64,000 nucleotides of DNA from Pseudooceanicola nanhaiensis DSM 18065 (GTDB taxonomy: Bacteria; Pseudomonadota; Alphaproteobacteria; Rhodobacterales; Rhodobacteraceae): contig NZ_JHZF01000013.1 in the NCBI RefSeq assembly GCF_000688295.1, positions 806,001-870,000 of the forward strand, in the 5' to 3' direction. This document shows positions 5,684 through 56,344 of this stretch, in pieces (within the stretch, counting starts at the first letter, position 1; the number at the start of each line of letters is the position of its first letter). The translations under genes were made by a program, and so were the position numbers. The notes under the pieces were generated by a model that had not been told where the DNA came from, made no database searches, and saw only the letters and a list, made by a program, of their open reading frames with translations.

Positions 5684-6876
5684 TCCTGCTCCTCCCTCTG
5701 TTCCTTGCGGAACGGGCCGTAGGCGGTGAGGACCTCGATGTCCTCTTCCACCGCGCGCCGTTCCTGGGTCAGGAACTGCTCGACGGCGCGGGCGAATCCG
5801 CGGTCGCCGATCCAGTGCAGCGAATGGCATTCCGACGGAAGGTAGCCGCGCGCCAGCTTGTGTTCGCCCTGCGCCCCCGCCTCGACCCGGGCCAGGCCGT
5901 TCTCGATCGCGTAGTCGATGGCGCGATAATAGCACGTCTCGAAATGCAGGAAGTCGTGATGCTCGATGCAGCCCCAGTAGCGGCCGAAGAGCACGTCGCG
6001 CCCGATCATGTTCAGCGCGCCGGCCACGTCGCGGCCCTCGCGTTCGCACATCACCAGGAGGATGTCGTCGCGCAGCACCTCGTGCGCGATCTCGAAGAAC
6101 GCCCGGGTGAGGTAGGGAGAGCCCCATTTCCGCGCGCCGGTGTCCTGGTAGAAGCGCCAGAAGCTGTCCCAGTGCTGCGGTTCGATCTCGTCCCCGGTGA
6201 GCAGGCGGATCTCGCCGCCGAAGGCGTTGGCGCGCTGGCGCTCCTTGCGGATCGTCTTGCGCTTGCGCGACGACAGGTCGGCGAGGAAGGCGTCGAAATC
6301 CGGGTAATCGCGGTTTTCCCAGTGGTATTGCTGGGTGGTCCGGCGCATCAGGCCGATCTCGTCGCCCGCGATGGCCTCTGCCTCGGTGCAGAAGGTGACG
6401 TGCAGCGAGGAGAGCCCGTTGTCGGCCGCCAGCTTCACGGCGCCCTGCACCAGCGCGGACATGCCCGCGGCCTCGTGCCCGGGTCTGGTGAGGAAACGGC
6501 GGCCCGTGGCGGGGGTGAAGGGGACGGCGATCTGCAGCTTGGGGTAATACTGTCCGCCCGCGTTCTCATAGGCGTGGGCCCAGGAGAAATCGAAGATGTA
6601 TTCGCCCTGGCTGTTCGACTTCGCGTAGAGCGGGGCGACGGCGATCAGCTCACCGTTCTGCCGGGCGGCGAGGTGGCGCGGCTCCCATCCGGTGCCGCGA
6701 CCGACCGAGCGGCTGTCTTCCAGCGCCTTCAGGAACCGGTGCGTGGTGAAGGGATCGACCGGGCGCCCGCCGTCCGCAGCTTCGGGACAGGCGCAGGCAT
6801 CCCACTCCTCGGCCGGGATCTCGTCCAGGCCGGGGAGGACGGCGATCTCGATCAGACTGTCCGTGTCCATTGGCAT
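5680..6876 (-). CDS. Predicted N-acyltransferase (GNAT/FemAB-like, COG3146 type)
   Basis: The 398-residue protein belongs to a large, poorly characterised family of cytosolic acyltransferases, often labelled peptidoglycan biosynthesis or GNAT. Characteristic stretches are [51 protein letters not shown] and [20 protein letters not shown], ending with [15 protein letters not shown]. The acceptor is unknown. It is separated by 42 bases from the glycerophosphodiesterase gene upstream and overlaps the pterin dehydratase downstream, so the five genes from ridA to mscS look co-transcribed. The ATG used gives the family's usual length. Confidence 0.85.
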
Positions 6877-6918
6877 CGGCCCTCAATCTGGCGCGGGCGG
6901 CCTGTCGTTCAAGGCGGA

Positions 6919-7695
6919 TCAGGCCGGAAGGGCGGCAGGGTAACCCTCGAAGGTGATGTTCTGCGCGACCTGGCGGGCCAGGGTCTCCTGATCGGGCGAG
7001 CGGATGGTCCAGCAGAGCACCGGCAGCCCCTGGTCCAGCAGCGCGGCGACGCGGGGCCGGTCGAGGTCGCGCGCCTCGTGGCTGATGAAGCTGGCGCGCG
7101 AGGCCGCGATGTCCGGGATCTCGCGCAGGCGGTCGAGCGTGCCCGCCGGGATCGGCTTCCAGTCGTCGGGCCGGTAGGAACAGGTGACGATACCGCGCGG
7201 CACGTCGGGTGCGAGCCCCGAGAGCACGCGGACCGAGTTCGGGTTGAACGACATGAAGGCGAGCGGGCCGTCGTAGCCGCGGACGGCCTCGGCCGCCGCC
7301 TCTTCGAGGATGCCGACCGCGGCGCCCAGCTGGCCGTCCTGGTCCTTGATCTCGACCAGCAGCGGCACGCGGCCCGCCACAAGCTCGAGCACCTCGGCGA
7401 AGGTGGGGATGCCGGTGGCGCCGCCCTTCAGCCTGATCTGCCCGAGCGCCGCGGCGCTGCGGGCGCGCAGCGGGCCGGTTTCCCCGGTCAGGCGGTCGAG
7501 GTCGTAATCGTGGAACACCATCGCCTGCCGGTCGGCGGAGAGCTGGAGGTCGATCTCGATCCCGTAGCCCGCCGCCACCGCGGCCTCGATCGCCTCGCGC
7601 GAGTTCTCGGGGCGGCCCTGCGTGACGTCATGCAGGGCCCGGTGCGCGATCGGCGCCTCAAGGAAGGCCGCGGGCAGGGGCGGGGTGCGGGTCAT
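6919..7695 (-). CDS. ugpQ: Glycerophosphodiester phosphodiesterase
   Basis: The 258-residue protein has the GDPD catalytic pattern: HRALHD at about residues 18-23, RPENSREA, then EIDLQLSADRQAMVFHDYDL with the metal-binding Glu/Asp pair and second catalytic His. There is no signal peptide, so it is a cytosolic UgpQ-type enzyme rather than periplasmic GlpQ. It hydrolyses glycerophosphodiesters to glycerol-3-phosphate and an alcohol. It lies 24 bases after ridA and 42 bases before the N-acyltransferase gene on the same strand. A link to phospholipid turnover with the neighbouring acyltransferase is possible but not shown. Confidence 0.92.
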   Translation of the reverse strand: MTRTPPLPAAFLEAPIAHRALHDVTQGRPENSREAIEAAVAAGYGIEIDLQLSADRQAMVFHDYDLDRLTGETGPLRARSAAALGQIRLKGGATGIPTFAEVLELVAGRVPLLVEIKDQDGQLGAAVGILEEAAAEAVRGYDGPLAFMSFNPNSVRVLSGLAPDVPRGIVTCSYRPDDWKPIPAGTLDRLREIPDIAASRASFISHEARDLDRPRVAALLDQGLPVLCWTIRSPDQETLARQVAQNITFEGYPAALPA

Positions 7696-45213: not shown

Positions 45214-45229
45214 CATTCTCGTCAGTATG
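45214..45229. promoter_or_regulatory. Predicted TetR operator copy 1, upstream of acyl-CoA synthetase
   Basis: CATTCTCGTCAGTATG matches the 16-bp inverted repeat found upstream of the livG and SDR operons (best form CATACTTTCAAGTATG). The right half-site AGTATG is exact. It ends 19 bases before the ATG of the synthetase and overlaps a TATGTT sequence (45226-45231) that could be the -10 box. Confidence 0.6.
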
Positions 45230-45248
45230 TTTCGGGGAGGAGTGACCC

Positions 45249-46841
45249 ATGATCGAGACTACGTGCGCGGCTCTCGACCGCGACCGGGCGGTTCTGCGGA
45301 ACCTTGTCGACAAGCACGCGAAGGCGCAGCCGGATGCCCCTTTCGTGGCGTTTCACGGCGGCGAAACCTGGACCTATGCCCAATTGCGCGATCGTGTGCG
45401 GCGGAGGGCTGCAGCGTTGGCGGTCGCCGGAGTGGGGCGGGGCGACCCCGTTCTCACCTTCCTGGGCAATGGACCGGACCTGCTGGTGACATGGTTCGCG
45501 ATCAACTACCTCGGCGGGATCTATGTCCCGCTCAACACCGCGCTGCTCGGGCGGCCATTGGCGCATGTGCTCGCGGATGCCGGTGCCCGGGTGATCGTGG
45601 CGCGGCCCGATCTCGCTGCGCGTCTCGCCGACGTCCCCGCGGGATCGGTCGAGACGGTCCTGCTGCGTGGAGAAGGGCTGCAGCCGAGCCTGCCGGGCCT
45701 CTCGTGCCGCACGCTGGTCGACCCGCCGGACGACGGGGACCTGCCGGAGCTGGGTCAGCCGATCCAGCCGTGGGACACGCAAGCGATCATGTATACATCG
45801 GGGACGACGGGGAACGCGAAGGGGGTCCTGTCGTCGTACACCCAGCTCTATACCATGGGGCCGGATGCCTTCGACGATGTCCGCGACGATGACCGGTGCA
45901 TGATCTGCGGGCCGATCTTCCACTGCGGATCGACACTCTATGTCTACGCCATGCTGGCGCGGGGGCTGTCCATCGGGATGATGGCGGAGTTCAAGACGGA
46001 CCAGTTCTGGGACGCTGTCCGGGAAACCGGCAGCACCTACTGCCTCCTGCTCGGCGTGATGGCGAGTTTCCTTCTGAAGGCACCGGCGACCCCGGCAGAT
46101 CGCGATCACATGCTGCGCAAGGTGTTCATCGTGCCGTTCGGGGAAGATGGTCCCGCGTTCGCGGACCGTTTCGGCACGGAGGTCTGGACGATCTACAACA
46201 TGACCGAGATCGCCAGCCCGCTGCATGCGGGGCCCGGGATCACCGAGAAGGGGCTGGCAGGGACACCGCGGGAGTGGTGGGAATGCCGGGTGGTGGACGA
46301 GAACGACATCGAGCTGCCGCGCGGCGAGGTGGGTGAGCTGGTGGTGCGCTCCTCACGTCCCTGGGCAATGATGAAGGGGTACCACAACAACCCCGCGGCC
46401 ACGGCCGAGGCGATGCGCAACGGGTGGTTCCACACGGGCGACAGCTTCCGCCGGGATCAGGACGGACGGTTCTATTTCGTCGATCGCCTGAAGGATGTCA
46501 TCCGGCGCCGAGGTGAGAACATTTCGTCCTTCGCGCTCGAAGGCGAGGTGCTCCTCCACCCGGATGTCCGGGAATGTGCCGCCGTGGCGGTGCCCAGCGA
46601 ACATGGCGAGGACGAGGTGCTGATCTGCGTGACCCCGATCGAGGGCCGGACCATCGACCCCGGGGAGGTGATCGCCGATCTTGCCGGACGGCTGCCGAAG
46701 TTCATGGTTCCACGCTATCTGCGCGTCATGGCTGACCTGCCAAAGACTGCCTCGGGCAAGGTGCAGAAGCACGTCATGCGGTCAGAGGGCATCACGCCGG
46801 ACACGGTGGACCATGCGGCGGTCCTGCGCGGCGCGGGTTGA
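45249..46841 (+). CDS. Acyl-CoA synthetase (AMP-forming), CaiC/FadD-like
   Basis: The 530-residue adenylating enzyme has the A3 motif YTSGTTGNAKG (182-192), YNMTEIASP, the GWFHTGDSFRRDQDGRFYFVDR block, RRRGENISSF and the C-terminal catalytic lysine in KTASGKVQK. It would activate a carboxylate as its CoA thioester. Overall it resembles crotonobetaine/carnitine-CoA ligases, but the substrate is not predictable. GGGGAGGAG lies 7 bases upstream of the ATG. It is followed after 8 bases by tetR and shares the 16-bp operator with a transporter operon and an oxygenase operon, suggesting it activates an acid made by those enzymes. Confidence 0.9.
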   Translation: MIETTCAALDRDRAVLRNLVDKHAKAQPDAPFVAFHGGETWTYAQLRDRVRRRAAALAVAGVGRGDPVLTFLGNGPDLLVTWFAINYLGGIYVPLNTALLGRPLAHVLADAGARVIVARPDLAARLADVPAGSVETVLLRGEGLQPSLPGLSCRTLVDPPDDGDLPELGQPIQPWDTQAIMYTSGTTGNAKGVLSSYTQLYTMGPDAFDDVRDDDRCMICGPIFHCGSTLYVYAMLARGLSIGMMAEFKTDQFWDAVRETGSTYCLLLGVMASFLLKAPATPADRDHMLRKVFIVPFGEDGPAFADRFGTEVWTIYNMTEIASPLHAGPGITEKGLAGTPREWWECRVVDENDIELPRGEVGELVVRSSRPWAMMKGYHNNPAATAEAMRNGWFHTGDSFRRDQDGRFYFVDRLKDVIRRRGENISSFALEGEVLLHPDVRECAAVAVPSEHGEDEVLICVTPIEGRTIDPGEVIADLAGRLPKFMVPRYLRVMADLPKTASGKVQKHVMRSEGITPDTVDHAAVLRGAG

Positions 46842-46849
46842 GGTGATCC

Positions 46850-47494
46850 ATGACGGAGGGTCCCGGCAAGTCCCTGGCGCGCAGGAAGAAGGGCTGGCGC
46901 AAGGACGAGATCATCGCGGCGGCGGCGGAGTGCTTCATGCGCCACGGCTACCAGTCTACCACGGTCGATGACGTGGCCGCGCGGCTGGGGTGCACGAAAG
47001 GCCGAATCTACCACTACTACGCGTCCAAGACGGACCTCTTCTTCGACGTCCATCGCGAAGGCATGGACCGGCTCTTCACGGCGCTGGCGCCGGCCATGGC
47101 CGTCCCCGGCGACGGGCTGACGGTGCTCGAGGCGATGTGCCTGGCCCATGCCCAGGCCATGCTGGAGCACCACACTTTCGAAAACGTCGTGGCCCAGGGC
47201 GTGCACATGCACAGGTTCGACGGGGCCACGCCCGAGCACAAGGTTGCAGTGCAGGACCTGATCGACAGCCGGGACACCTTCGAGTGGCATTTCAAGCAGG
47301 CGATCCGTCGTGCGATCGACGACGGCTCCCTGCGCGACGTCGACGTGGCCGTGACGGCGAAGGTCATCCTCGGGGCGCTGCAGTGGACGCTCTACTGGTA
47401 CCGGCCGGCCAAGGGCGACACCGCGCGAACCCGCGCCGGACTGGCGCAAAAACTCGTCGATCCGCTGATCGAGGGCCTGCGTCCACGTGATTGA
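46850..47494 (+). CDS. TetR family transcriptional regulator
   Basis: The 214-residue protein has an N-terminal TetR helix-turn-helix (about 18-64; AAAECFMRHGYQSTTVDDVA, then RLGCTKGRIYHYYASKTDLFF) preceded by a basic stretch SLARRKKGWRK, and an all-helical ligand-binding domain. The sequence resembles the acyl-CoA- or lipid-responsive TetR proteins near fatty-acid activation genes. It follows the acyl-CoA synthetase in the same operon. I propose that it binds the 16-bp repeat CATACTTTCAAGTATG present before its own operon, before livG and before the SDR gene, with the CoA ester or its precursor as inducer. The binding is inferred, not shown. Confidence 0.9.
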   Translation: MTEGPGKSLARRKKGWRKDEIIAAAAECFMRHGYQSTTVDDVAARLGCTKGRIYHYYASKTDLFFDVHREGMDRLFTALAPAMAVPGDGLTVLEAMCLAHAQAMLEHHTFENVVAQGVHMHRFDGATPEHKVAVQDLIDSRDTFEWHFKQAIRRAIDDGSLRDVDVAVTAKVILGALQWTLYWYRPAKGDTARTRAGLAQKLVDPLIEGLRPRD

Positions 47495-47552
47495 TCCACT
47501 GGCGGTGGACAGACGATTCATTCGCGTTGGCTGATCTTTGGCAGCACGCGAA

Positions 47553-47581
47553 TTGACAAGCAAAAGAACGGTGCATACCGT
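47553..47581 (+). promoter_or_regulatory. Promoter of the livGFKHM-type operon
   Basis: TTGACA (47553-47558, a perfect -35) and TACCGT (47576-47581) are separated by 17 bases. The TetR-type operator begins 9 bases after the -10 box, so it would cover the transcription start. Confidence 0.55.
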
Positions 47582-47589
47582 GGGGGAAA

Positions 47590-47605
47590 CATACTTTCAA
47601 GTATG
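47590..47605. promoter_or_regulatory. Predicted TetR operator copy 2, upstream of livG
   Basis: CATACTT-TC-AAGTATG is a perfect 7-bp inverted repeat with a 2-base centre. It is the best copy of the motif also present at 45214-45229 and 52426-52441. Its position over the expected transcription start fits repression. Confidence 0.7.
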
Positions 47606-47633
47606 CTTTTGACCCTTGGGAGGAGGTCGGCGA

Positions 47634-47681
47634 GTGACATCTGAATTGCACGGACGAGCCATGCCCAGGTCGTCGGCATGA
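47634..47681 (+). CDS. Possible 15-residue leader peptide overlapping the livG start
   Basis: A GTG preceded at 6 bases by the strongest ribosome-binding site of the operon (GGGAGGAGG) opens a 15-codon frame (VTSELHGRAMPRSSA) whose TGA overlaps the livG ATG (ATGA). The livG ATG itself has no good Shine-Dalgarno sequence. Translation of livG may therefore depend on ribosomes finishing the leader. The peptide has no recognisable attenuation codons. Confidence 0.4.
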   Translation: MTSELHGRAMPRSSA

Positions 47682-48427
47682 GCGCGATGCTGCAGGCATC
47701 CGGCCTGACGAAGGAGTTCAAGGGGTTCGTTGCCGTGAACAATGTCGACCTTACGGTCGAACGCGGTACCATCCACGCCCTGATCGGCCCGAATGGCGCG
47801 GGCAAGACAACCTGTTTCAACCTGCTGACCAAGTTCCTTCAGCCGACGCGCGGCACGATCACCTACGACGGACGTGACATCACTTCGATGTCCGCCGCCG
47901 ACATCGCGCGGCTTGGCCTTGTGCGGTCGTTCCAGATCTCGGCGGTCTTCGATGACCTCACGGTGCTCGAGAACGTCCGCATCGCGATGCAGCGGCGACG
48001 CGGCGACTCCTATGATTTCTGGCGCTCCGAGGTCGTGCTCGCGCAATACGACGAAGAGGCGCGCGGCTATGTCGAAAGCGTCGGGCTCGGCGACTTCCTG
48101 AACCACCGCGCCGCAGAGCTGTCCTACGGCCGCAAACGCGCTCTCGAGATCGCGACGACGCTGGCGCTCGAGCCCGAGATGCTGCTGCTCGACGAGCCCA
48201 TGGCCGGGATGGCGCAGGCCGACGTGGACCGCATCTCGGCCCTGATCAAGCGGATCAGCGAGGGGCGGACGATCCTGATGGTCGAACACAACCTCTCGGT
48301 CGTTGCCGACCTCTCGGACCGGATCACGGTGCTGGCCCGGGGCGAGGTCCTGGCAGAGGGGGATTATGACACCGTGTCGAAATCGCCCGATGTGATCGAC
48401 GCCTATATCGGAGCCGGGCATGACTGA
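47678..48427 (+). CDS. livG: Branched-chain-type ABC transporter ATPase, LivG family
   Basis: The 249-residue ATPase has Walker A GPNGAGKTTCFN, the LivG-type insertion with DDLTVLENVRIAMQRR, the signature LSYGRKRALEIATTLALEPEMLLLDEPMAGMA and the H-loop VEHNLSVV. It pairs with LivF to power the LivHM permease. The signature is LSYG rather than LSGG, as in LivG proteins. The first gene of the importer operon, it overlaps livF by 8 bases. Confidence 0.93.
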   Translation: MSAMLQASGLTKEFKGFVAVNNVDLTVERGTIHALIGPNGAGKTTCFNLLTKFLQPTRGTITYDGRDITSMSAADIARLGLVRSFQISAVFDDLTVLENVRIAMQRRRGDSYDFWRSEVVLAQYDEEARGYVESVGLGDFLNHRAAELSYGRKRALEIATTLALEPEMLLLDEPMAGMAQADVDRISALIKRISEGRTILMVEHNLSVVADLSDRITVLARGEVLAEGDYDTVSKSPDVIDAYIGAGHD

Positions 48428-49166
48428 CGCGACAACCATGCAACCGCAGTCCGAACGCACCTCGACCGATGCGCTGCTCGAGGTGCAGGGGCTCGAGGGC
48501 TGGTACGGCGAAAGCCATGTCCTGCACGGGATCGAATTCCACGTCCGGGAAGGCGAGGTCGTGACGCTCCTGGGGCGCAACGGCGCAGGCAAGACCACGA
48601 CGATCAAGGCGATCATGGGGCTGCTCGACAAGCGTCGCGGTTCGGTGAAGCTGGCCGGGAAGGAGACGATTGCCCTGCAGGCGCGCCACATCGCCCGGAT
48701 GGGGATCGCGATCTGCCCCGAGGAGCGCGGCATCTTCTCGTCGCTCTCGGTCGAGGAGAACCTGCACCTGCCGCCGAAGCTGGCCGAGGGCGGGCTGTCG
48801 ACCGAGCGCATCTTCGAGCTGTTTCCGAACCTGAAGGAACGTCGCCGCAGCCAAGGCACCAAGCTTTCGGGCGGAGAGCAGCAGATGCTGGCCATCGCCC
48901 GCATCCTGCGCACCGGGTCGAAATTCCTGCTGCTCGACGAGCCGACCGAGGGCCTTGCCCCGGTCATCGTGCAGCAGATCGGCCGCACGATCCAGGCCCT
49001 CAAGGAGGCGGGGTTCACGATCGTGCTGGTGGAGCAGAACTTCCGTTTCGCGGCCTCGGTCGCGGACCGGCATTACGTCGTCGAACAGGGCAGGGTGGTG
49101 GACATGATCCCGAACCACGCGCTGGACGCGAATATCGACAAGCTCCACGCCTATCTGGGCGTGTGA
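48420..49166 (+). CDS. livF: Branched-chain-type ABC transporter ATPase, LivF family
   Basis: The 248-residue product has Walker A GRNGAGKTTTIKAIMG, the LivF segment AICPEERGIFSSLSVEENL, the signature LSGGEQQMLAIARILRTGSKFLLLDEPTEGLAP and VEQNFRFA. A 20-residue N-terminal extension precedes the ATPase core. It is translated from an ATG inside the end of livG and is followed after 49 bases by the binding-protein gene with its own strong ribosome-binding site. Confidence 0.93.
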   Translation: MTDATTMQPQSERTSTDALLEVQGLEGWYGESHVLHGIEFHVREGEVVTLLGRNGAGKTTTIKAIMGLLDKRRGSVKLAGKETIALQARHIARMGIAICPEERGIFSSLSVEENLHLPPKLAEGGLSTERIFELFPNLKERRRSQGTKLSGGEQQMLAIARILRTGSKFLLLDEPTEGLAPVIVQQIGRTIQALKEAGFTIVLVEQNFRFAASVADRHYVVEQGRVVDMIPNHALDANIDKLHAYLGV

Positions 49167-49215
49167 CGGATCGAACCGGCGCGGATGGGCCGCGCCACTT
49201 TGGGAGGAGATAAGA

Positions 49216-50418
49216 ATGATGAAAAGATTGGCATGGACGACCGTGGCCGCCACGGCACTCGCAGCGGCGACCCCGGCCCTGGCCACGGACGTGAAGCTGG
49301 GCGTGCTGAACGACCAGTCCGGCGTCTACGCGGACCTGTCCGGGCAGGGCTCGGTCGTCGCGGCCCGCATGGCGGTCGAGGATTTCGACGCCGAGGCCAA
49401 GGGGATCAACGTCGAGATCATCTCGGCCGACCACCAGAACAAGCCCGACATCGCCTCGAACATCGCGCGGCAGTGGTACGACCAGGACAATGTCGACGTG
49501 ATCCTCGACGTGCCGACCTCGTCCACCGCGCTGGCCGTGGCGGACGTGACGGCCGAGTTCAACAAGATCTTCATCAACTCGGGCGCGGCGACGTCCGACC
49601 TGACGCGGGCCAACTGCCAGCCGACGACGATCCACTGGACCTATGACACCGCCGCGCTGGCCAATGGCACGGGCAAGGCGGTGACCGAGGCCGGCGGCGA
49701 CACCTGGTTCTTCCTGACCGCCGACTACGCCTTCGGCCATGCGCTCGAGCGCGACACGACCGCGGTCGTCGAGGCCAATGGCGGCGAGGTGCTGGGCTCC
49801 GTCGCGCACCCGTTCCCGGGCACCGACTTCTCGTCCTTCCTGCTCCAGGCCCAGGCCTCGGGCGCGAAGGTGATCGGGCTGGCCAACGCCGGCGCGGATA
49901 CCGTGAACTCGATCAAGCAGGCGGCGGAATTCGGCATCGTGCAGGCGGGCCAGAAGCTGGCCGGGCTGCTGCTGTTCATCAACAACGTGCATTCGCTGGG
50001 CGCCGAGACCGCGCAGGGCCTGCAGATGACCACCGCCTTCTACTGGGACCAGAACGACGGCACGCGTGAGTTCAGCGAGCGCTTCCAGGCCGAGGTCGGC
50101 GCACCGCCGTCGATGGTCCAGGCGGGCGTCTATGCCGGCACGCTGCACTACCTCAAGGCGGTCGAAGCCGTCGGCAGCAACGATTCCGAGGCCATCGTCG
50201 CCAAGATGAAGGAGATGGAGACCGACGACGCGCTGTTCGGCAAGGGCTACATCCGCAAGGACGGCCGGGTGATCCACGACATGTACCTCATGGAAGTGAA
50301 GGCGCCGGATGAATCGACCGGCGAATGGGACCTGCTGAAACAGGTTTCCACGATCTCGGGCGAGGATGCCTTCCTGCCGATGGAAGACGGCGGCTGCGCC
50401 TTCGCGCTGGCAGAGTAA
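49216..50418 (+). CDS. livK: Branched-chain-type ABC transporter substrate-binding protein, LivK family
   Basis: The 400-residue periplasmic protein has a Sec signal (MMKRLAWTTVAATALAAATPALA) and a type I periplasmic-binding fold with VKLGVLNDQSGVYADLSGQG, VILDVPTSSTALAVADVTAE and DYAFGHALERDTTAVVEANG. Members with this fold in catabolic clusters bind amino acids, aromatic acids, short-chain amides or lipid-like acids. Given its neighbours (acyl-CoA synthetase, monooxygenase), a non-amino-acid ligand is likely. GGGAGGAG precedes the start. A strong hairpin follows the stop. Confidence 0.93.
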   Translation: MMKRLAWTTVAATALAAATPALATDVKLGVLNDQSGVYADLSGQGSVVAARMAVEDFDAEAKGINVEIISADHQNKPDIASNIARQWYDQDNVDVILDVPTSSTALAVADVTAEFNKIFINSGAATSDLTRANCQPTTIHWTYDTAALANGTGKAVTEAGGDTWFFLTADYAFGHALERDTTAVVEANGGEVLGSVAHPFPGTDFSSFLLQAQASGAKVIGLANAGADTVNSIKQAAEFGIVQAGQKLAGLLLFINNVHSLGAETAQGLQMTTAFYWDQNDGTREFSERFQAEVGAPPSMVQAGVYAGTLHYLKAVEAVGSNDSEAIVAKMKEMETDDALFGKGYIRKDGRVIHDMYLMEVKAPDESTGEWDLLKQVSTISGEDAFLPMEDGGCAFALAE

Positions 50419-50427
50419 TCGAACCGG

Positions 50428-50454
50428 GGGCGCGGCAGTGCGGCTGCCGCGCCC
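50428..50454 (+). repeat. Intercistronic hairpin after the binding-protein gene
   Basis: GGGCGCGGCAG (50428-50438) and CTGCCGCGCCC (50444-50454) form a perfect 11-bp stem with a 5-base loop, 9 bases after livK. There is no T tract and the permease genes follow 27 bases later. It most likely protects the livK message from 3' decay and raises binding protein over permease. Confidence 0.7.
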
Positions 50455-50481
50455 TGGACCATCGACGTTAGGGGGAGACGC

Positions 50482-51369
50482 ATGTTCGAACTTCTGGGCA
50501 TTCCGCCTCAGGTTCTCATGGGACAGCTGCTGATCGGGCTGATCAACGGGTCGTTCTACGCCGTGCTGTCACTGGGACTGGCGGTGATCTTCGGCCTGCT
50601 GAACATCATCAACTTCGCCCATGGGGCGCAATACATGATGGGGGCCTTCGTATCCTGGATGCTGCTGAACTATCTCGGCATCGGGTACTGGCCCGCCCTG
50701 ATCCTCGCACCCCTCGTCGTGGGCGCCATCGGGATCGTGCTCGAGCGGACGATGATCTCGAGGCTCTACAAGCTGGATCACCTCTACGGCCTGTTGCTGA
50801 CCTTCGGTCTGGCGCTGATCATCCAGGGTCTGTTCCGCAACTACTACGGGGTGAGCGGCCTGCCTTATGCCATTCCACCGGCGCTGCAGGGCGGTCAGAA
50901 CCTCGGCTTCATGTTCCTGCCGAATTACCGGGGCTGGGTCATCGTCGCCTCGGTCATCGTCTGCTTCGGCACCTGGTTCATGATCGAGAAGACCCGCCTC
51001 GGGTCCTACCTGCGCGCCGCGACCGAGAACCCCGAACTGGTCGGCGCCTTCGGCATCAACGTGCCGCGGATGATCACGCTGACCTACGGCTTCGGCGTCG
51101 GCCTCGCGGCCTTCGCGGGCGTGCTCGCGGCGCCGATCTACTCGGTCAACCCGAACATGGGGGCGGACCTGATCATCGTCGTCTTCGCCGTGGTGGTGAT
51201 CGGCGGCATGGGCTCGATCATGGGGGCGATCCTCACCGGCTTCGGCCTGGGCATCATCGAGGGTCTGACCCGCGTCTTCTACCCCGAAGGCTCCGCCGTC
51301 GTCATCTTCGTGATCATGGCCATCGTGCTGATGATCAAGCCCGAAGGCCTGTTTGGGAATACCGCCTGA
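50482..51369 (+). CDS. livH: Branched-chain-type ABC transporter permease, LivH family
   Basis: The 295-residue product has eight or nine membrane helices and LivH marks: LLIGLINGSFYAVLSLGLAV, GLLNIINFAHGAQYMMGAFV, LRAATENPELVGAFGINVPR and VFAVVVIGGMGSIMGAILTG. It forms half of the importer channel. The start ATG follows GGGGGAGA. Its stop shares bases with the livM start (TGATG). Confidence 0.94.
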   Translation: MFELLGIPPQVLMGQLLIGLINGSFYAVLSLGLAVIFGLLNIINFAHGAQYMMGAFVSWMLLNYLGIGYWPALILAPLVVGAIGIVLERTMISRLYKLDHLYGLLLTFGLALIIQGLFRNYYGVSGLPYAIPPALQGGQNLGFMFLPNYRGWVIVASVIVCFGTWFMIEKTRLGSYLRAATENPELVGAFGINVPRMITLTYGFGVGLAAFAGVLAAPIYSVNPNMGADLIIVVFAVVVIGGMGSIMGAILTGFGLGIIEGLTRVFYPEGSAVVIFVIMAIVLMIKPEGLFGNTA

Positions 51370-52349
51370 TGTCCACATCCGAGAACACCAAGGTCGCGCT
51401 TCCCGCCATGACGCACACGGTCGGCATGCCGCGGCATCAGAAGATCATCTTCGTCCTTCTGCTGGGCGTCCTGCTTGCCCTGCCGTTCATGGTCTATCCC
51501 GTCTTCGCCATGAAGGTGTTGTGCTTCGCGCTCTTTGCCTGCGCCTTCAACCTGCTGCTGGGGTTCGGCGGCCTGCTGAGCTTCGGTCACGCGGCCTATT
51601 TCGGGATGGCGAGCTATGTCTGCGCCCATGCCGCGAAGGTCTGGGGCCTCACGCCCGAGCTGGCGATCCTTGCCGGCACCGCCACCGCGGCCCTCCTCGG
51701 GCTCGTGATCGGCTCTCTCGCCATCCGTCGGCAGGGCATCTACTTCGCGATGGTCACTCTCGCCTTCGCGCAGATGGTCTATTTCTTCGCCCTGCAGGCC
51801 GAGTTCACCGGCGGCGAGGACGGGATCCAGTCGGTGCCGCGGAACGACCTTCTGGGCATGTTCCCGATGAGCGACGACCTGACCTTCTACTTCTTCGTCC
51901 TCGCGATCACCTACGGCGGGATCCTGTTCATCTACCGCATCACCCATTCGCCCTTCGGCCAGGTGCTGAAGTCGATCCGCGAGAACGAGCCGCGCGCCGT
52001 GTCGCTCGGCTACAGGGTGAACCGTTACAAGCTGATGGTCTTCGTGCTGTCGGCCACCTTCGCGGGACTTGCGGGCGCGACCAAGAGCCAGGTCTTCCAC
52101 CTCGCCTCGCTGACCGACGTCCACTGGACCATGTCGGGCGAGGTGGTGCTGATGACCCTGCTCGGCGGCATGGGCACGGTGCTGGGACCGATCGTGGGCG
52201 CGGCCGTCGTGGTCACGATGCAGAACTACCTCGCCTATCTCGGGGCCTGGGTCACGGTGATCCAGGGCTGCATCTTCGTGGTGGGCGTTCTGCTCTTCCG
52301 CGAAGGCATCATCGGCGTCCTGTCGCGGATCCTGAAAAAACCGCTCTGA
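51369..52349 (+). CDS. livM: Branched-chain-type ABC transporter permease, LivM family
   Basis: The 326-residue product has about nine helices and LivM features NLLLGFGGLLSFGHAAYFGM, RRQGIYFAMVTLAFAQMVYF, SIRENEPRAVSLGYRVNRYK and LMTLLGGMGTVLGPIVGA. It is the second channel subunit. It is the last gene of the importer operon and is followed by a good terminator. Confidence 0.94.
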   Translation: MSTSENTKVALPAMTHTVGMPRHQKIIFVLLLGVLLALPFMVYPVFAMKVLCFALFACAFNLLLGFGGLLSFGHAAYFGMASYVCAHAAKVWGLTPELAILAGTATAALLGLVIGSLAIRRQGIYFAMVTLAFAQMVYFFALQAEFTGGEDGIQSVPRNDLLGMFPMSDDLTFYFFVLAITYGGILFIYRITHSPFGQVLKSIRENEPRAVSLGYRVNRYKLMVFVLSATFAGLAGATKSQVFHLASLTDVHWTMSGEVVLMTLLGGMGTVLGPIVGAAVVVTMQNYLAYLGAWVTVIQGCIFVVGVLLFREGIIGVLSRILKKPL

Positions 52350-52380
52350 TACATCGGGCGACCGACTTCGCGCATTCTGG

Positions 52381-52410
52381 AAACCCGGTCCGATCGGCCG
52401 GGTTTTCTTC
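52381..52410 (+). terminator. Rho-independent terminator of the livGFKHM operon
   Basis: AAACCCGGTC (52381-52390) pairs with GGCCGGGTTT (52396-52405, one G-T pair) around a 5-base loop and is followed by a T-rich tail (TTCTTCT). It separates the importer operon from the promoter of the SDR-monooxygenase operon that starts right after. Confidence 0.88.
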
Positions 52411-52413
52411 TGC

Positions 52414-52443
52414 TTGACGAAAAAACCTACTCATGAGTATGTT
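52414..52443 (+). promoter_or_regulatory. Promoter with TetR operator copy 3, upstream of the SDR-monooxygenase operon
   Basis: TTGACG (52414-52419) and TATGTT (52438-52443) are 18 bases apart and form a plausible promoter. The operator CCTACTCATGAGTATG (52426-52441, inner 12 bases perfectly palindromic) lies between and over the two boxes. It matches the copies at 45214 and 47590. Binding here should block RNA polymerase. Confidence 0.65.
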
Positions 52444-52466: not shown

Positions 52467-52499
52467 ATGAAACTCAATTTGCCAGGAGTCCGGGCGTGA
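52467..52499 (+). CDS. Possible 10-residue leader peptide overlapping the SDR start
   Basis: ATG at 52467, preceded by GGAGAGGAGAGG, opens MKLNLPGVRA, whose TGA overlaps the GTG start of the SDR gene (GTGA). It mirrors the leader frame at livG in placement but not in sequence. The SDR start also has its own AGGAG, so dependence on the leader is uncertain. Confidence 0.35.
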   Translation: MKLNLPGVRA

Positions 52500-53455
52500 G
52501 CCGGGTTCTGATCACGGGCGGGGCGGGGTTCCTGGGCCAGCGGCTCGCCCGCGCACTGGTTGCCGCGGGCCAGTTGACCGGGAGTGACGGGCGACGGCGT
52601 CCCATCGAGCGCATCTGCCTTGCCGATATTGCGCCCGCGGTCCTGCCGCCCGCCCATGGCCTCGGGATGGAGCGCCGCCAGGGCGATCTCTCGTCACCGG
52701 ACTTCGTCGCAAGCCTCGCGGCAGAGGGTTTCGACACCATCTTCCATCTCGCGTCCTTCCTGACACTGCAGGCCGAACAGGACCCGGCCCAGGCCTATGC
52801 GGTCAACGTCGACTCCCTGCGCCGACTGATCGATGGGGCACGCAACCGGCCGAAGGTGGTCTTCACCTCGTCGATCGCGATCTTCGGTGGCAGCCTGCCG
52901 GACGAGGTGGGGGACGATCTGAATCCCGTGCCAACCACGACCTACGGCATCCACAAGGCGATCAACGAACTGCTGATCGCGGATTATTCGCGTCACGGCA
53001 GGATAGACGGGCGCTCCCTGCGCCTGCCGATTGTCCTCATCCGCTCCGGCGCGCCGCAATCCGCCGTTTCGGATCGGGTGGCCGCCATCGCGCGTGAGCC
53101 GATGAACGGCCACGACATTGTCGCGCCGCTGCCTTCCGACATGCCCGTGCCGGTGGTTTCGGTGGGCAAGGTCATCGAGGGGCTCGTCCTCTTGCATGAC
53201 GTGCCCGCAGATCGCCTGCCCGCGAAGCGGGCCTTCAACCTGCCGGCCCTCACCGTGACGGGGGCGGACATGCAGGCGTCGGTCGATCGGATGGGCGGGC
53301 GCGGGCAGATCACCTTCGCCCCGGAGCCGGCCCTGTCCGCGATTGTCGCAGGATGGCCCCGGCGCTTCGTCTCGTCCGTCGCACCGCAGCTCGGGATCGG
53401 GCCCGACGCCGATTTCGACGCGATCATTGCCGATTACCTCGCGAACAGGGACTGA
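52496..53455 (+). CDS. NAD-dependent extended SDR dehydrogenase (DenD/epimerase-like)
   Basis: The 319-residue product has the extended-SDR cofactor loop GGAGFLG (about 8-14), ADI after the second strand, FTSSIAIFGG, and the catalytic YGIHK. It resembles D-erythronate dehydrogenase-like members of the NAD-dependent epimerase/dehydratase family. I use a GTG start with AGGAG 7 bases upstream. A longer frame with ATG at 52433 starts inside the promoter and operator and cannot be translated from that promoter. It is coupled to the monooxygenase gene one base later, suggesting that alcohol oxidation feeds the oxygenase. Confidence 0.85.
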   Translation: MSRVLITGGAGFLGQRLARALVAAGQLTGSDGRRRPIERICLADIAPAVLPPAHGLGMERRQGDLSSPDFVASLAAEGFDTIFHLASFLTLQAEQDPAQAYAVNVDSLRRLIDGARNRPKVVFTSSIAIFGGSLPDEVGDDLNPVPTTTYGIHKAINELLIADYSRHGRIDGRSLRLPIVLIRSGAPQSAVSDRVAAIAREPMNGHDIVAPLPSDMPVPVVSVGKVIEGLVLLHDVPADRLPAKRAFNLPALTVTGADMQASVDRMGGRGQITFAPEPALSAIVAGWPRRFVSSVAPQLGIGPDADFDAIIADYLANRD

Positions 53456-53456
53456 C

Positions 53457-54734
53457 ATGGCCGACATCTGCATCATCGGCGCCGGCTCCTCCGGCGTGAC
53501 CGTCGCCAAGGCGCTGCGCGACAAGGGGCTGGCCTTCGACATGTTCGAGAAGGGCAGCGACATCGGCGGCATGTGGCGATACGAGAACGACAACGGCCAG
53601 AGTTCGTGTTACGCCTCGCTGCACATCGACACCTCTCGACCGAACCTCGGCTACTCGGACTTCCCGATCGATCCGTCCCTGCCGGATTTCCTGAGCCACG
53701 CCCAGTTCCTGCGCCACCTCGAGGCCTATGCGGACGCCAACGGACTCCGGGAGCTGGTCACATTCGGGACGCGGGTGGACAGGGTGGAGCCCGACGGCCA
53801 GCGCTGGCGCGTCACGCTGGCGAATGGCGAAAGCCGCGACTATGCCAGTGTCGTCTGCGCCAACGGCCACCTGTGGGACCCGCGGATGCCCGACTTCCCG
53901 GGACATTTCGATGGCCATGTCATTCACTCTCATCACTACCGGACCGCCGCGCCCTACGAGGGCAAGCGGGTGCTCGTGGTGGGGTTGGGGAACTCTGCGG
54001 TCGACATTGCCGTCGACATCGCGCGGCGCGCGGAGCACGTCACCGTCTCGACCCGCCGAAGCGCGTGGATCATGCCGAAGTACCTGATGGGGATCCCGAT
54101 AGACCAATGGTCGGGTTTCCTGGTGCGCCGCCTCGGGTTGCCGGTCGTCTGGTCGCGTTGGATCATGTCTCGGCTCATCCGCCTTGGCGTGGGAGACCAG
54201 CGCCGCTTCGGCCTGCCGCGGCCCGAGCACCCGATGTGGCGCGAACATGCGACCTTGAGCCAGGAACTCCTGCCCTACATCGGCCACGGCTACATCGACA
54301 TCAAGCCGGACGTCTCCGAACTGCGCAGGCATGCCGTCGCATTCACCGATGGGACCGAGGCCGATTATGACGCGATCATCTACGCGACCGGATACAGCAT
54401 CAGCTTTCCGTTTCTCTCGCCTGACGTTTTCGACCCGGACAGGGATGCAGGCAGGCTCTATCGCCGCATGGTGCCACCAGCTCATCCGGGCCTGATTTTT
54501 GCCGGCCTGGTCCAGCCCGTCGGGCCCACCATCCCGCTCGTCGAGCTGCAGGGCAAATGGATTGCAGCCCTTCTGTCGGGCGCGTTCGAGCTGCCGGCAC
54601 CGCAGGACATGGAAAAGGAGATCCTGGAACACCTCGAGGATCAGAAGCGCACCTACCTCGACTCGGCGAGATACACTCTGGAAGTCGATTTCCGCGCGTA
54701 TGCGAAACAGTTGCGTTCCGACGCCGGATGGTAG
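53457..54734 (+). CDS. Class B flavin-dependent monooxygenase (FMO/Baeyer-Villiger type)
   Basis: The 425-residue FAD/NADPH enzyme has the FAD site GAGSSG (8-13), GGMWRYEND, the class B fingerprint F-x-G-x3-H-x3-Y (FDGHVIHSHHY, 151-161), the NADPH loop GLGNSA (176-181) and YATGYSISFPF near the C-terminus. Such enzymes insert oxygen next to a ketone (Baeyer-Villiger) or oxidise N or S atoms. In this context, after an alcohol dehydrogenase and with a CoA ligase in the same predicted regulon, ketone-to-ester oxidation is attractive. The short form (FMO rather than long BVMO) leaves N- or S-oxidation possible. Confidence 0.9.
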   Translation: MADICIIGAGSSGVTVAKALRDKGLAFDMFEKGSDIGGMWRYENDNGQSSCYASLHIDTSRPNLGYSDFPIDPSLPDFLSHAQFLRHLEAYADANGLRELVTFGTRVDRVEPDGQRWRVTLANGESRDYASVVCANGHLWDPRMPDFPGHFDGHVIHSHHYRTAAPYEGKRVLVVGLGNSAVDIAVDIARRAEHVTVSTRRSAWIMPKYLMGIPIDQWSGFLVRRLGLPVVWSRWIMSRLIRLGVGDQRRFGLPRPEHPMWREHATLSQELLPYIGHGYIDIKPDVSELRRHAVAFTDGTEADYDAIIYATGYSISFPFLSPDVFDPDRDAGRLYRRMVPPAHPGLIFAGLVQPVGPTIPLVELQGKWIAALLSGAFELPAPQDMEKEILEHLEDQKRTYLDSARYTLEVDFRAYAKQLRSDAGW

Positions 54735-55044: not shown

Positions 55045-55251
55045 ATGGCCAATGGCACCGTGAAATGGTTCAACGCATCCAAAGGTTTTGGCTTCATCGA
55101 GCCCGAGAGCGGCGGACGTGACATCTTCGTCCACATCTCGGCCGTCGAGCGCGCTGGTCTGACCGGCCTTGCCGATGCTCAGAAAGTCACCTTCGACATC
55201 GAATCGGGCCGCGACAACCGCGAGAGCGCGACCAATCTCGCGCTCGCCTGA
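55045..55251 (+). CDS. cspA: Cold-shock protein, CspA family
   Basis: The 68-residue OB-fold RNA chaperone starts MANGTVKWFNASKGFGFIEP with RNP1 (KGFGFI) and has RNP2 (DIFVHI) and FDIESGRDNRESATNL. CspA-type proteins melt mRNA structure at low temperature or under stress. The ATG follows ACAGGAGAA by 8 bases. A hairpin with an 11-bp stem follows the stop. The downstream fatty-acid desaturase frame has no usable start outside cspA, so the two genes appear to overlap. Confidence 0.96.
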   Translation: MANGTVKWFNASKGFGFIEPESGGRDIFVHISAVERAGLTGLADAQKVTFDIESGRDNRESATNLALA

Positions 55252-56344
55252 GCCGAGCTTTGCCGGGTGCCCTGACGGGCGCCCGGCGCACCAACCTCCC
55301 CGACAGTCTGACCCTCGGCCGACGGAGGCCGATCGGGCCGCAGCGTCCGATGCGGCGCAGTCGTGGACGCGACGCCTCGCAGCCTACCGGACCCCGTTCC
55401 CGTCGCGCAGCCGTTTCGAGTTGGTGGTCACGGCACTCCCCTTCTTCGTCATCTTTGCCGTCTCGTGGTGGTCCGTTGCGATCAGCCCCTGGCTTGCGGT
55501 TGGCTTGTCGCTGATCAACGCGGCCTTTGTCATCCGGCTCTTCGTGATTCAGCATGACTGCGGGCACGGCGCCTTCTTCGAGTCCCGGTTCTGGAACGGC
55601 TGGTGCGGGCGCCTTCTCGGTGTTCTGACGCTGACGCCCTTCGACATGTGGAAACAGAACCACGCGCTGCATCACGCGACCACCGGCAACCTCGATCATC
55701 GCGGGACCGGGGATATCCCCACGCTGACAATCGCGGAATATCGCGCGAGATCCCTTGCGGCGCGGGCCGGATACAGGCTTCTGCGGAGCCCGCTGATCCT
55801 GTTCGGTGTCATCGCGCCGTTCAATTTCCTGATCTGGAATCGTGTCCCGCCGAATCCGCTCAACGCCCGCCGCGGCGAGTGGAAGAGCGCGCTCGGCACC
55901 GACGCGGCGATCCTCGCTCTGCTCGGGTCGCTCTATCTTCTGGGGGGCATCCCGGTCCTGGTCTTCGTCTACCTGCCGATGATGGTGCTCGCGTCCATCG
56001 CCGGCACCTGGCTCTTCTACGTCCAGCACCAGTTCGAGGAGACGTCCTGGGAGCAGGACAGGGAATGGACTGTGCAGGACGCGGCGTTTCACGGCTCGTC
56101 CTACTACGTGCTGCCACCGGTCCTGACCTGGATCACGGCAAACATCGGGGCCCACCACATCCATCATCTCGCAAGCCGGATACCGTTCTATCGGCTGCCC
56201 GAGGTTCTTCGGGACCACGGCGAGTTCAGGGAGGTCGGGCGCATCACGATCCGCGAAAGTCTCGGCTGCGCGAGGCTCGCGCTCTGGGACGAGACCGGTC
56301 GCCGCCTCGTATCCTTCCGGGAGGCCCGGAAGCTGCCGGCATGA
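55175..56344 (+). CDS. Membrane fatty-acid desaturase (acyl-lipid, Delta-12 type), start uncertain
   Basis: The product has the three histidine boxes of di-iron desaturases, HDCGH (about 127-131), HALHH (163-167) and HHIHH near the C-terminus, and four hydrophobic segments. It introduces a double bond into membrane-lipid acyl chains, raising fluidity in the cold. Similarity to the family begins near SWTRRLAAYRTPFPSRSRF, but between the cspA stop and that point no in-frame ATG, GTG or TTG exists. The nearest starts are ATG 55175 or TTG 55169, inside cspA in another frame, without a good ribosome-binding site. The first 60 residues look non-coding. Either an unusual start, a lost start by mutation or a sequence error is likely. 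Confidence 0.85.
   Translation: MLRKSPSTSNRAATTARARPISRSPEPSFAGCPDGRPAHQPPRQSDPRPTEADRAAASDAAQSWTRRLAAYRTPFPSRSRFELVVTALPFFVIFAVSWWSVAISPWLAVGLSLINAAFVIRLFVIQHDCGHGAFFESRFWNGWCGRLLGVLTLTPFDMWKQNHALHHATTGNLDHRGTGDIPTLTIAEYRARSLAARAGYRLLRSPLILFGVIAPFNFLIWNRVPPNPLNARRGEWKSALGTDAAILALLGSLYLLGGIPVLVFVYLPMMVLASIAGTWLFYVQHQFEETSWEQDREWTVQDAAFHGSSYYVLPPVLTWITANIGAHHIHHLASRIPFYRLPEVLRDHGEFREVGRITIRESLGCARLALWDETGRRLVSFREARKLPA
55262..55287 (+). terminator. Hairpin after cspA
   Basis: GCCGGGTGCCC (55262-55272) pairs with GGGCGCCCGGC (55277-55287, one G-T pair) around TGAC, 10 bases after the cspA stop. No T tract follows. It could end the cspA message or act as a stability element before the desaturase. 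Confidence 0.65.

Follow-up and report, generated by a model that had tools for sequence, protein, structure and literature searches.

A single TetR-family repressor and three short inverted repeats appear to join an uptake and catabolic gene cluster into one regulon in Pseudooceanicola nanhaiensis DSM 18065. The window analysed here is a stretch of 64,000 nucleotides (contig NZ_JHZF01000013.1, positions 806,001 to 870,000 of the forward strand) in which three 16-bp sites, designated A, B and C, each precede a different transcription unit: an acyl-coenzyme A (CoA) synthetase-tetR unit, a branched-chain-amino-acid-type importer (livGFKHM) and a unit encoding a short-chain dehydrogenase/reductase (SDR) and a monooxygenase (Table 1). 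With a probability of about 0.9, we interpret these sites as operators of the TetR protein encoded at 46850-47494, which would act as a dimer to repress all three units and would be released once a derivative of the imported substrate is bound. Predicted autorepression of the tetR gene together with control of three units is well supported by the sequence comparisons, and an original prediction made from the letters of this stretch, in which each unit of a TetR regulon has its own operator, is borne out by the conservation of the three promoters, the retention of the sites in a rearranged cluster, the association between operator and TetR and the match to the operator of DarR, a related regulator. 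The predicted regulon is new, but belongs to a fairly ordinary, known type of regulatory prediction.

The three 16-mers were located exactly where the original prediction had placed them; the spacer of six bases that it described gave zero matches, and the correct frame is C-x-T-x-C-T-(4)-AGTATG, with CATACT-N4-AGTATG as the pattern shared by sites A, B and C. Self-complementary pairs numbered seven of eight at both 47590 and 52426 in comparison to five of eight at 45214, making site A the weakest of the three. Searching the window for C.T.CT....AGTATG returned sites A, B and C on the forward strand and, on the reverse strand, only 47590 itself, while the half-site AGTATG/CATACT was present at four additional places, in agreement with the claim that the 64 kb contain half-sites and no other full copy. 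An independent matrix was built from 54 distinct 28-mers at loci whose TetR was at most 70% identical, leaving out the window and its nearest relatives. When applied to the window this matrix gave the three sites 20.7, 18.6 and 16.4 bits, and the next-best position scored 4.0. Dinucleotide shuffles (n = 300) yielded a mean of 0.0033 matches per 64 kb at ≥16.3 bits versus three in the real sequence; the three sites are far above chance expectation.

Recurrence of the motif at unrelated sites was also assessed in the 4.66-Mb source genome. TACT-N4-AGTA occurred at three places, two of which are window sites and one of which lies within a reading frame elsewhere on the same contig. Allowing up to one mismatch to CATAC-N6-GTATG gave 22 places including the three window sites. 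Matrix scoring of the 19 non-window places in this set identified one that reached at least 16 bits (16.3), situated between the 3' ends of convergent frames, and the second-best (13.2 bits) was within a reading frame; reading-frame context was examined at 11 of the 19. The genome holds 15 TetR-like matches, of which only the 46850-47494 gene is in the window.

Alignment of the window with three additional Roseobacteraceae genomes, Seohaeicola zhoushanensis (L046), Pseudosulfitobacter koreensis (L038) and a metagenome-derived Sulfitobacter genome (L037), demonstrated that all three promoters are conserved and that the same three carry the sites. Conserved islands at each promoter comprised the operator and a -35 or -35-like element (CTGGACG at A, TTGACA at B and TTGACG at C). 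TTGACA was identical across the four aligned loci, TTGACG and the run of A that follows it were conserved in all four, and the CATTC left arm of site A was common to all four at the same promoter; in L046 the last base of site B is A, not G. A further relative (L039) has its liv, ligase and SDR-monooxygenase units in a different arrangement, yet every unit retains its own site. The original prediction had also placed the sites over -10 boxes, which holds for site C at TATGTT, while site B comes shortly after the likely -10 and begins, as read by eye, eight bases past a weak TACCGT, hence near the start point. Assignment of the liv promoter is tentative because the consensus promoter scan missed 47553..47581.

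The operator was then followed across TetR relatives, each species being represented by a single genome. Of 223 confirmed stretches, the best 80 were retained together with flanks of at most 10 kb (1.50 Mb). CATAC-N6-GTATG was present in 89 copies at 58 of these 80 loci. The five letters of the arm can be permuted in 29 other ways, 28 of which gave zero to two copies and one of which, CATCA, gave 13; the mirror pattern gave none, and spacers of 2-12 other than 6 gave zero or one. For 88 of the 89 copies, a cluster-gene homologue starts no more than 350 bp downstream; no copy lies inside such a homologue, and the remaining one could not be assigned. The gene downstream of these 88 copies was TetR (49), acyl-CoA synthetase (26), SDR (8), LivG (3) or both SDR and TetR (2). 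Exact arms are missing from 22 loci; 20 of these hold a match at nine of ten positions somewhere in the locus, and in 14 of the 22 it stands directly upstream of a cluster gene, as judged by eye. Within the family of the host (295 genomes, TetR being scored as present at E ≤ 1e-30), exact CATACY-N4-RGTATG occurred in 12 of 12 TetR-positive genomes versus 51 of 283 TetR-negative genomes (Fisher p = 3.7e-9). Judged by these comparisons, operator and TetR family go together in both Alpha- and Betaproteobacteria; the sites themselves, their placement, their conservation and this association were observed directly in the sequences.

Other features of these genomes were recorded alongside. In L093 (6700; 6855-7412) and L086 (10906-11541; 11591) a second TetR homologue is accompanied by a CATAC-N6-GTATG copy of its own, and liv-type genes lie further along the locus; regulator plus operator are apparently duplicated there. 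A TetR-SDR-monooxygenase arrangement with no liv operon close to TetR was frequent (L041-L045, L047-L050, L055, L057-L059, L062, L068 and L070) and may be an older core. Five betaproteobacterial sites (L048, L058, L062, L068 and L070) start with CCTAC, as does site C of the window. Several exact matches were present in two TetR-negative genomes (G200:C1:2153726, 2156197 and 3701977; G237:C10:21094 and 22297), with spacings of 1-3 kb between some of them; a more distant regulator may serve these matches.

The 46850-47494 protein contains the PF00440 TetR_N helix-turn-helix (E 2.6e-16, 59.5 bits, cut-off 24). Its AlphaFold2 model (predicted local distance difference test score, pLDDT, 90.9) has nine helices in an all-helical two-domain fold, and the best Foldseek and VIA-align matches to it were TetR-family proteins. 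Residue 146 is Trp in the window protein and Gly in the nearest aligned relatives (E-W-H-F versus E-G-H-F). By both sequence and fold the nearest solved relative is DarR, at 36-37% identity, represented by entries from Mycobacterium smegmatis, M. baixiangningiae and Rhodococcus sp. USK13 (PDB 8sua, 8suk, 8sva, 8svd, 8sv6 and 8t5y). The published DarR operator is ATACT(N)4AGTAT, in which Lys44/Gly45 read TXC (PMC10636190). Site B matches these arms at 10 of 10 positions and sites A and C at 9 of 10, and the base-contacting Lys44-Gly45 pair is kept in the window TetR (TKG aligned).

A third GXA/TXC motif, offset by three bases, was present in 45 of the 54 distinct 28-mers of the relatives. Outside the clade of the window (70 loci), the full GTA/TAC, counted on slightly wider arms, was found in 84 of 95 sites (26 of 36 distinct, in comparison to a shuffle expectation of 3.3 distinct on average and 9 at most), GTAGTATG being the site type of one such three-half-site relative. 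The 10 loci of the window's own clade had a third half-site in 2 of 16 sites and the window operators had the TXC/GXA form in none of three, although all of these counts are less independent than they appear since the loci are related. In the tree, the window belongs to a supported group of 11 rows. This group contains seven of the eight rows whose sites all lack the third motif, together with three rows with the motif and one without a site. As the third half-site is missing in the window and present in most relatives, a single dimer is predicted here and a dimer-of-dimers in most relatives. The inter-dimer contact stretch of DarR was uninformative on binding mode, as relatives with and without the third half-site alike differ from DarR in this stretch.

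From this evidence we infer binding, repression, a single-dimer mode and an inducer, which can be assembled into the following mechanism. A TetR dimer would occupy each operator, with each Lys-Gly (K50, G51) of the recognition helix reading one TAC/GTA half-site in the manner of DarR. At sites A and C the dimer would lie over the -10 region, and at site B approximately at the start point, jointly repressing its own acyl-CoA synthetase-tetR unit, the livGFKHM importer and the SDR-monooxygenase unit. A ligand derived from the substrate, most likely a CoA thioester produced by the synthetase of the cluster, would free the repressor from DNA, and therefore uptake and catabolism would be turned on together. 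The promoter of the regulator itself would be held by the weaker site. If so, a motif noticed by eye leads to a regulon that can be tested, with a defined operator and the DarR-DNA complex as structural template, and in many Proteobacteria the motif may help to annotate uptake clusters that are as yet uncharacterised.

Several observations weigh against this reading. At the DNA level, the arm of site A deviates (TTCT), its -35-like CTGGACG lies 20 bases from TATGTT, and the promoter scan recovered the site C promoter only, a single hit versus a shuffle mean of 0.9 and thus at chance frequency. In the protein, the phosphate-contacting Tyr49 of DarR is replaced by His, and conservation of the recognition helix across the 80 loci arises partly by selection because one search peptide includes TKGRIY. 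Two loci (L047 and L108) contain no nine-of-ten match, and in six others (L072, L096, L100, L104, L110 and L112) such a match lies away from a recognised cluster gene. Co-occurrence in the host family is not always adjacency, as 10 of the 12 TetR-positive genomes have a site within 10 kb of TetR among the matches listed; in G038 the operator matches are on a different contig from TetR, and for G004 no position is among the matches listed. The 14 other TetR-like matches in the source genome and the exact matches in 51 TetR-negative genomes (G200 having three) could point to operators bound by another regulator, such as another TetR of the genome, with the neighbouring TetR acting elsewhere. By our own estimate from base composition, a genome would contain about 0.4 matches by chance, and most matches in TetR-negative genomes therefore need no regulator. 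Since 49 of the 88 assigned sites lie upstream of a TetR gene or an adjoining homologue, 2 more lie upstream of SDR plus TetR, and DarR is reported to bind the same palindrome (PMC10636190), this alternative is very unlikely. The shortness of the repeats is all that speaks for chance or mobile-element sequence, an explanation rendered extremely improbable by the permuted-arm counts, the upstream placement of 88 of 89 copies, the matrix ranks and the dinucleotide shuffles.

The direction and reach of the regulation can also be read differently, as repression is argued from position only and the autoregulatory site A is the weakest match: TetR might activate, or might repress its own unit only while sites B and C weakly tune transport and the monooxygenase. 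The best matches, however, are B, which precedes the transport unit, and C, which precedes the catabolic one, and overlap with the -10 (C) or a position following it (B) would be unusual for an activator, which makes this alternative quite unlikely. A quite unlikely reading is that the protein functions as DarR, a dimer-of-dimers repressor responsive to cyclic di-AMP (c-di-AMP) or cyclic AMP, as might be proposed from its having DarR as best sequence and fold match and from retention of the nucleotide-pocket residues W177, Y178, R179 and L192. Residues R165, W177, Q184 and L192 of the c-di-AMP site are reported to be completely conserved among DarR proteins (PMC10636190), and in the window TetR they are K, W, D and L, so that two of four are changed. 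The diadenylate-cyclase domain PF02457 had no match in the source genome, whereas the same search was positive in 11 of 14 control genomes. The lack of the third half-site in the three window operators and the long DarR branch in the tree (2.98) also argue against a functional DarR. Identity with DarR itself was rejected, and the protein is not called DarR, because of R165K, Q184D and the lack of a PF02457 match.

Table 1. Operators, genes and promoter elements of the proposed regulon in the window.
Feature	Coordinates	Strand	Sequence	Remarks
Operator A	45214..45229	+	CATTCTCGTCAGTATG	promoter of acyl-CoA synthetase-tetR unit; independent-matrix rank 3
Acyl-CoA synthetase / AMP-forming ligase	45249..46841	+		Pfam AMP-binding, AMP-binding_C
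TetR-family repressor (putative), DarR-like	46850..47494	+
Likely liv promoter	47553..47581	+	TTGACA, 17 bases, TACCGT	by-eye reading
Operator B	47590..47605	+	CATACTTTCAAGTATG	approximate start point of liv unit; independent-matrix rank 1
LivG-type ATP-binding cassette (ABC) ATPase	47678..48427	+		Pfam ABC_tran, BCA_ABC_TP_C
LivF-type ABC ATPase	48420..49166	+		Pfam ABC_tran; UrtE and LivF models under cut-off
LivK-type periplasmic binding protein	49216..50418	+		Pfam Peripla_BP_6; PDB 3i09, E 6e-128
LivH-type permease	50482..51369	+		Pfam BPD_transp_2
LivM-type permease	51369..52349	+		Pfam BPD_transp_2
Terminator-like hairpin, T-rich tail	52379..52407	+		between livM and SDR gene; would separate units
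Promoter-like element, SDR unit	52414..52443	+	TTGACG-18-TATGTT	site C overlaps -10
Operator C	52426..52441	+	CCTACTCATGAGTATG	promoter of SDR-monooxygenase unit; independent-matrix rank 2
SDR / epimerase-type dehydrogenase	52496..53455	+		GTG start; Pfam Epimerase
Flavin-containing monooxygenase (FMO)-like protein	53457..54734	+		Pfam FMO-like; PDB 8z12, E 1.3e-82

The hairpin between livM and the SDR gene is weak when taken alone, because seven such sites occur in the region versus a shuffle mean of 3.6. Leader frames with strong ribosome-binding sites precede livG (47634-47681, 15 codons) and the SDR gene (52467-52499, 10 codons) and overlap their starts by four bases (ATGA and GTGA, respectively). 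Both genes keep frame and overlap in L046 and L038, as does livG in L039; in L037 they are kept as well, as judged by eye. Their retention despite changed amino acids suggests translational coupling; outside the clade of the window most SDR homologues have no leader overlap. A fatty-acid desaturase-like gene (55169-56344; Pfam FA_desaturase) lies 3' of the monooxygenase gene.

Gene content gave limited indication of the substrate. None of the transporter, ligase, SDR and monooxygenase proteins reached a curated NCBIfam cut-off among the best 25 families per protein; the ligase scored best with PRK06155 (448 bits, cut-off 722) and the SDR gave 279 bits with the D-erythronate dehydrogenase model (cut-off 325). 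PDB searches with the FMO, SDR, LivK and ligase sequences provided no usable ligand, the ligase having no match at 1e-60, and a literature search for the 8z12 monooxygenase listed nothing useful. The rhizobial L051 cluster includes a frame, which we take to be thioesterase-like, matching the C-terminal part of the carnitine 3-dehydrogenase model (108.6 bits, cut-off 592), as well as a thiolase (TIGR01930, above cut-off) and an SDR. This content is compatible with CoA-thioester catabolism and names no substrate.

Among the titles and abstract openings listed in searches of journals outside subscription, no description of this operator in Proteobacteria was found. After DarR, the next-best match by sequence (E 2.5e-22) and Foldseek was PfmR of Thermus thermophilus (PDB 3vpr), presumably the same protein as TTHB023. 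The published TTHB023 consensus differs in sequence from the window operator (PMC7022988). The next-nearest folds to the TetR model include KstR2, AibR and Bacillus FadR, CoA-thioester-responsive regulators at about 17-23% identity, of which AibR and Bacillus FadR were solved with acyl-CoA according to their entry titles. A CoA thioester is our guess for the inducer, by analogy with these folds and because a ligase is encoded in the unit of the regulator. The targets named for DarR, namely darR, Ms5347 and cspA, include no importer-ligase cluster (PMC10636190), in contrast to the predicted targets of the window TetR. At the DNA itself the window TetR should, from its sequence, work like DarR. 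The chances appear evenly balanced that the DarR operator code is not mycobacterial only, but is also used by a large proteobacterial TetR family controlling ligase-importer or SDR-monooxygenase clusters, a family split by the third half-site into dimer-of-dimers and single-dimer members, with the mainly Rhodobacterales clade of the window mostly having lost that half-site. If this is true, gain and loss of the third half-site would provide a natural series for a TetR scaffold shifting between the single dimer predicted here and the dimer-of-dimers mode.

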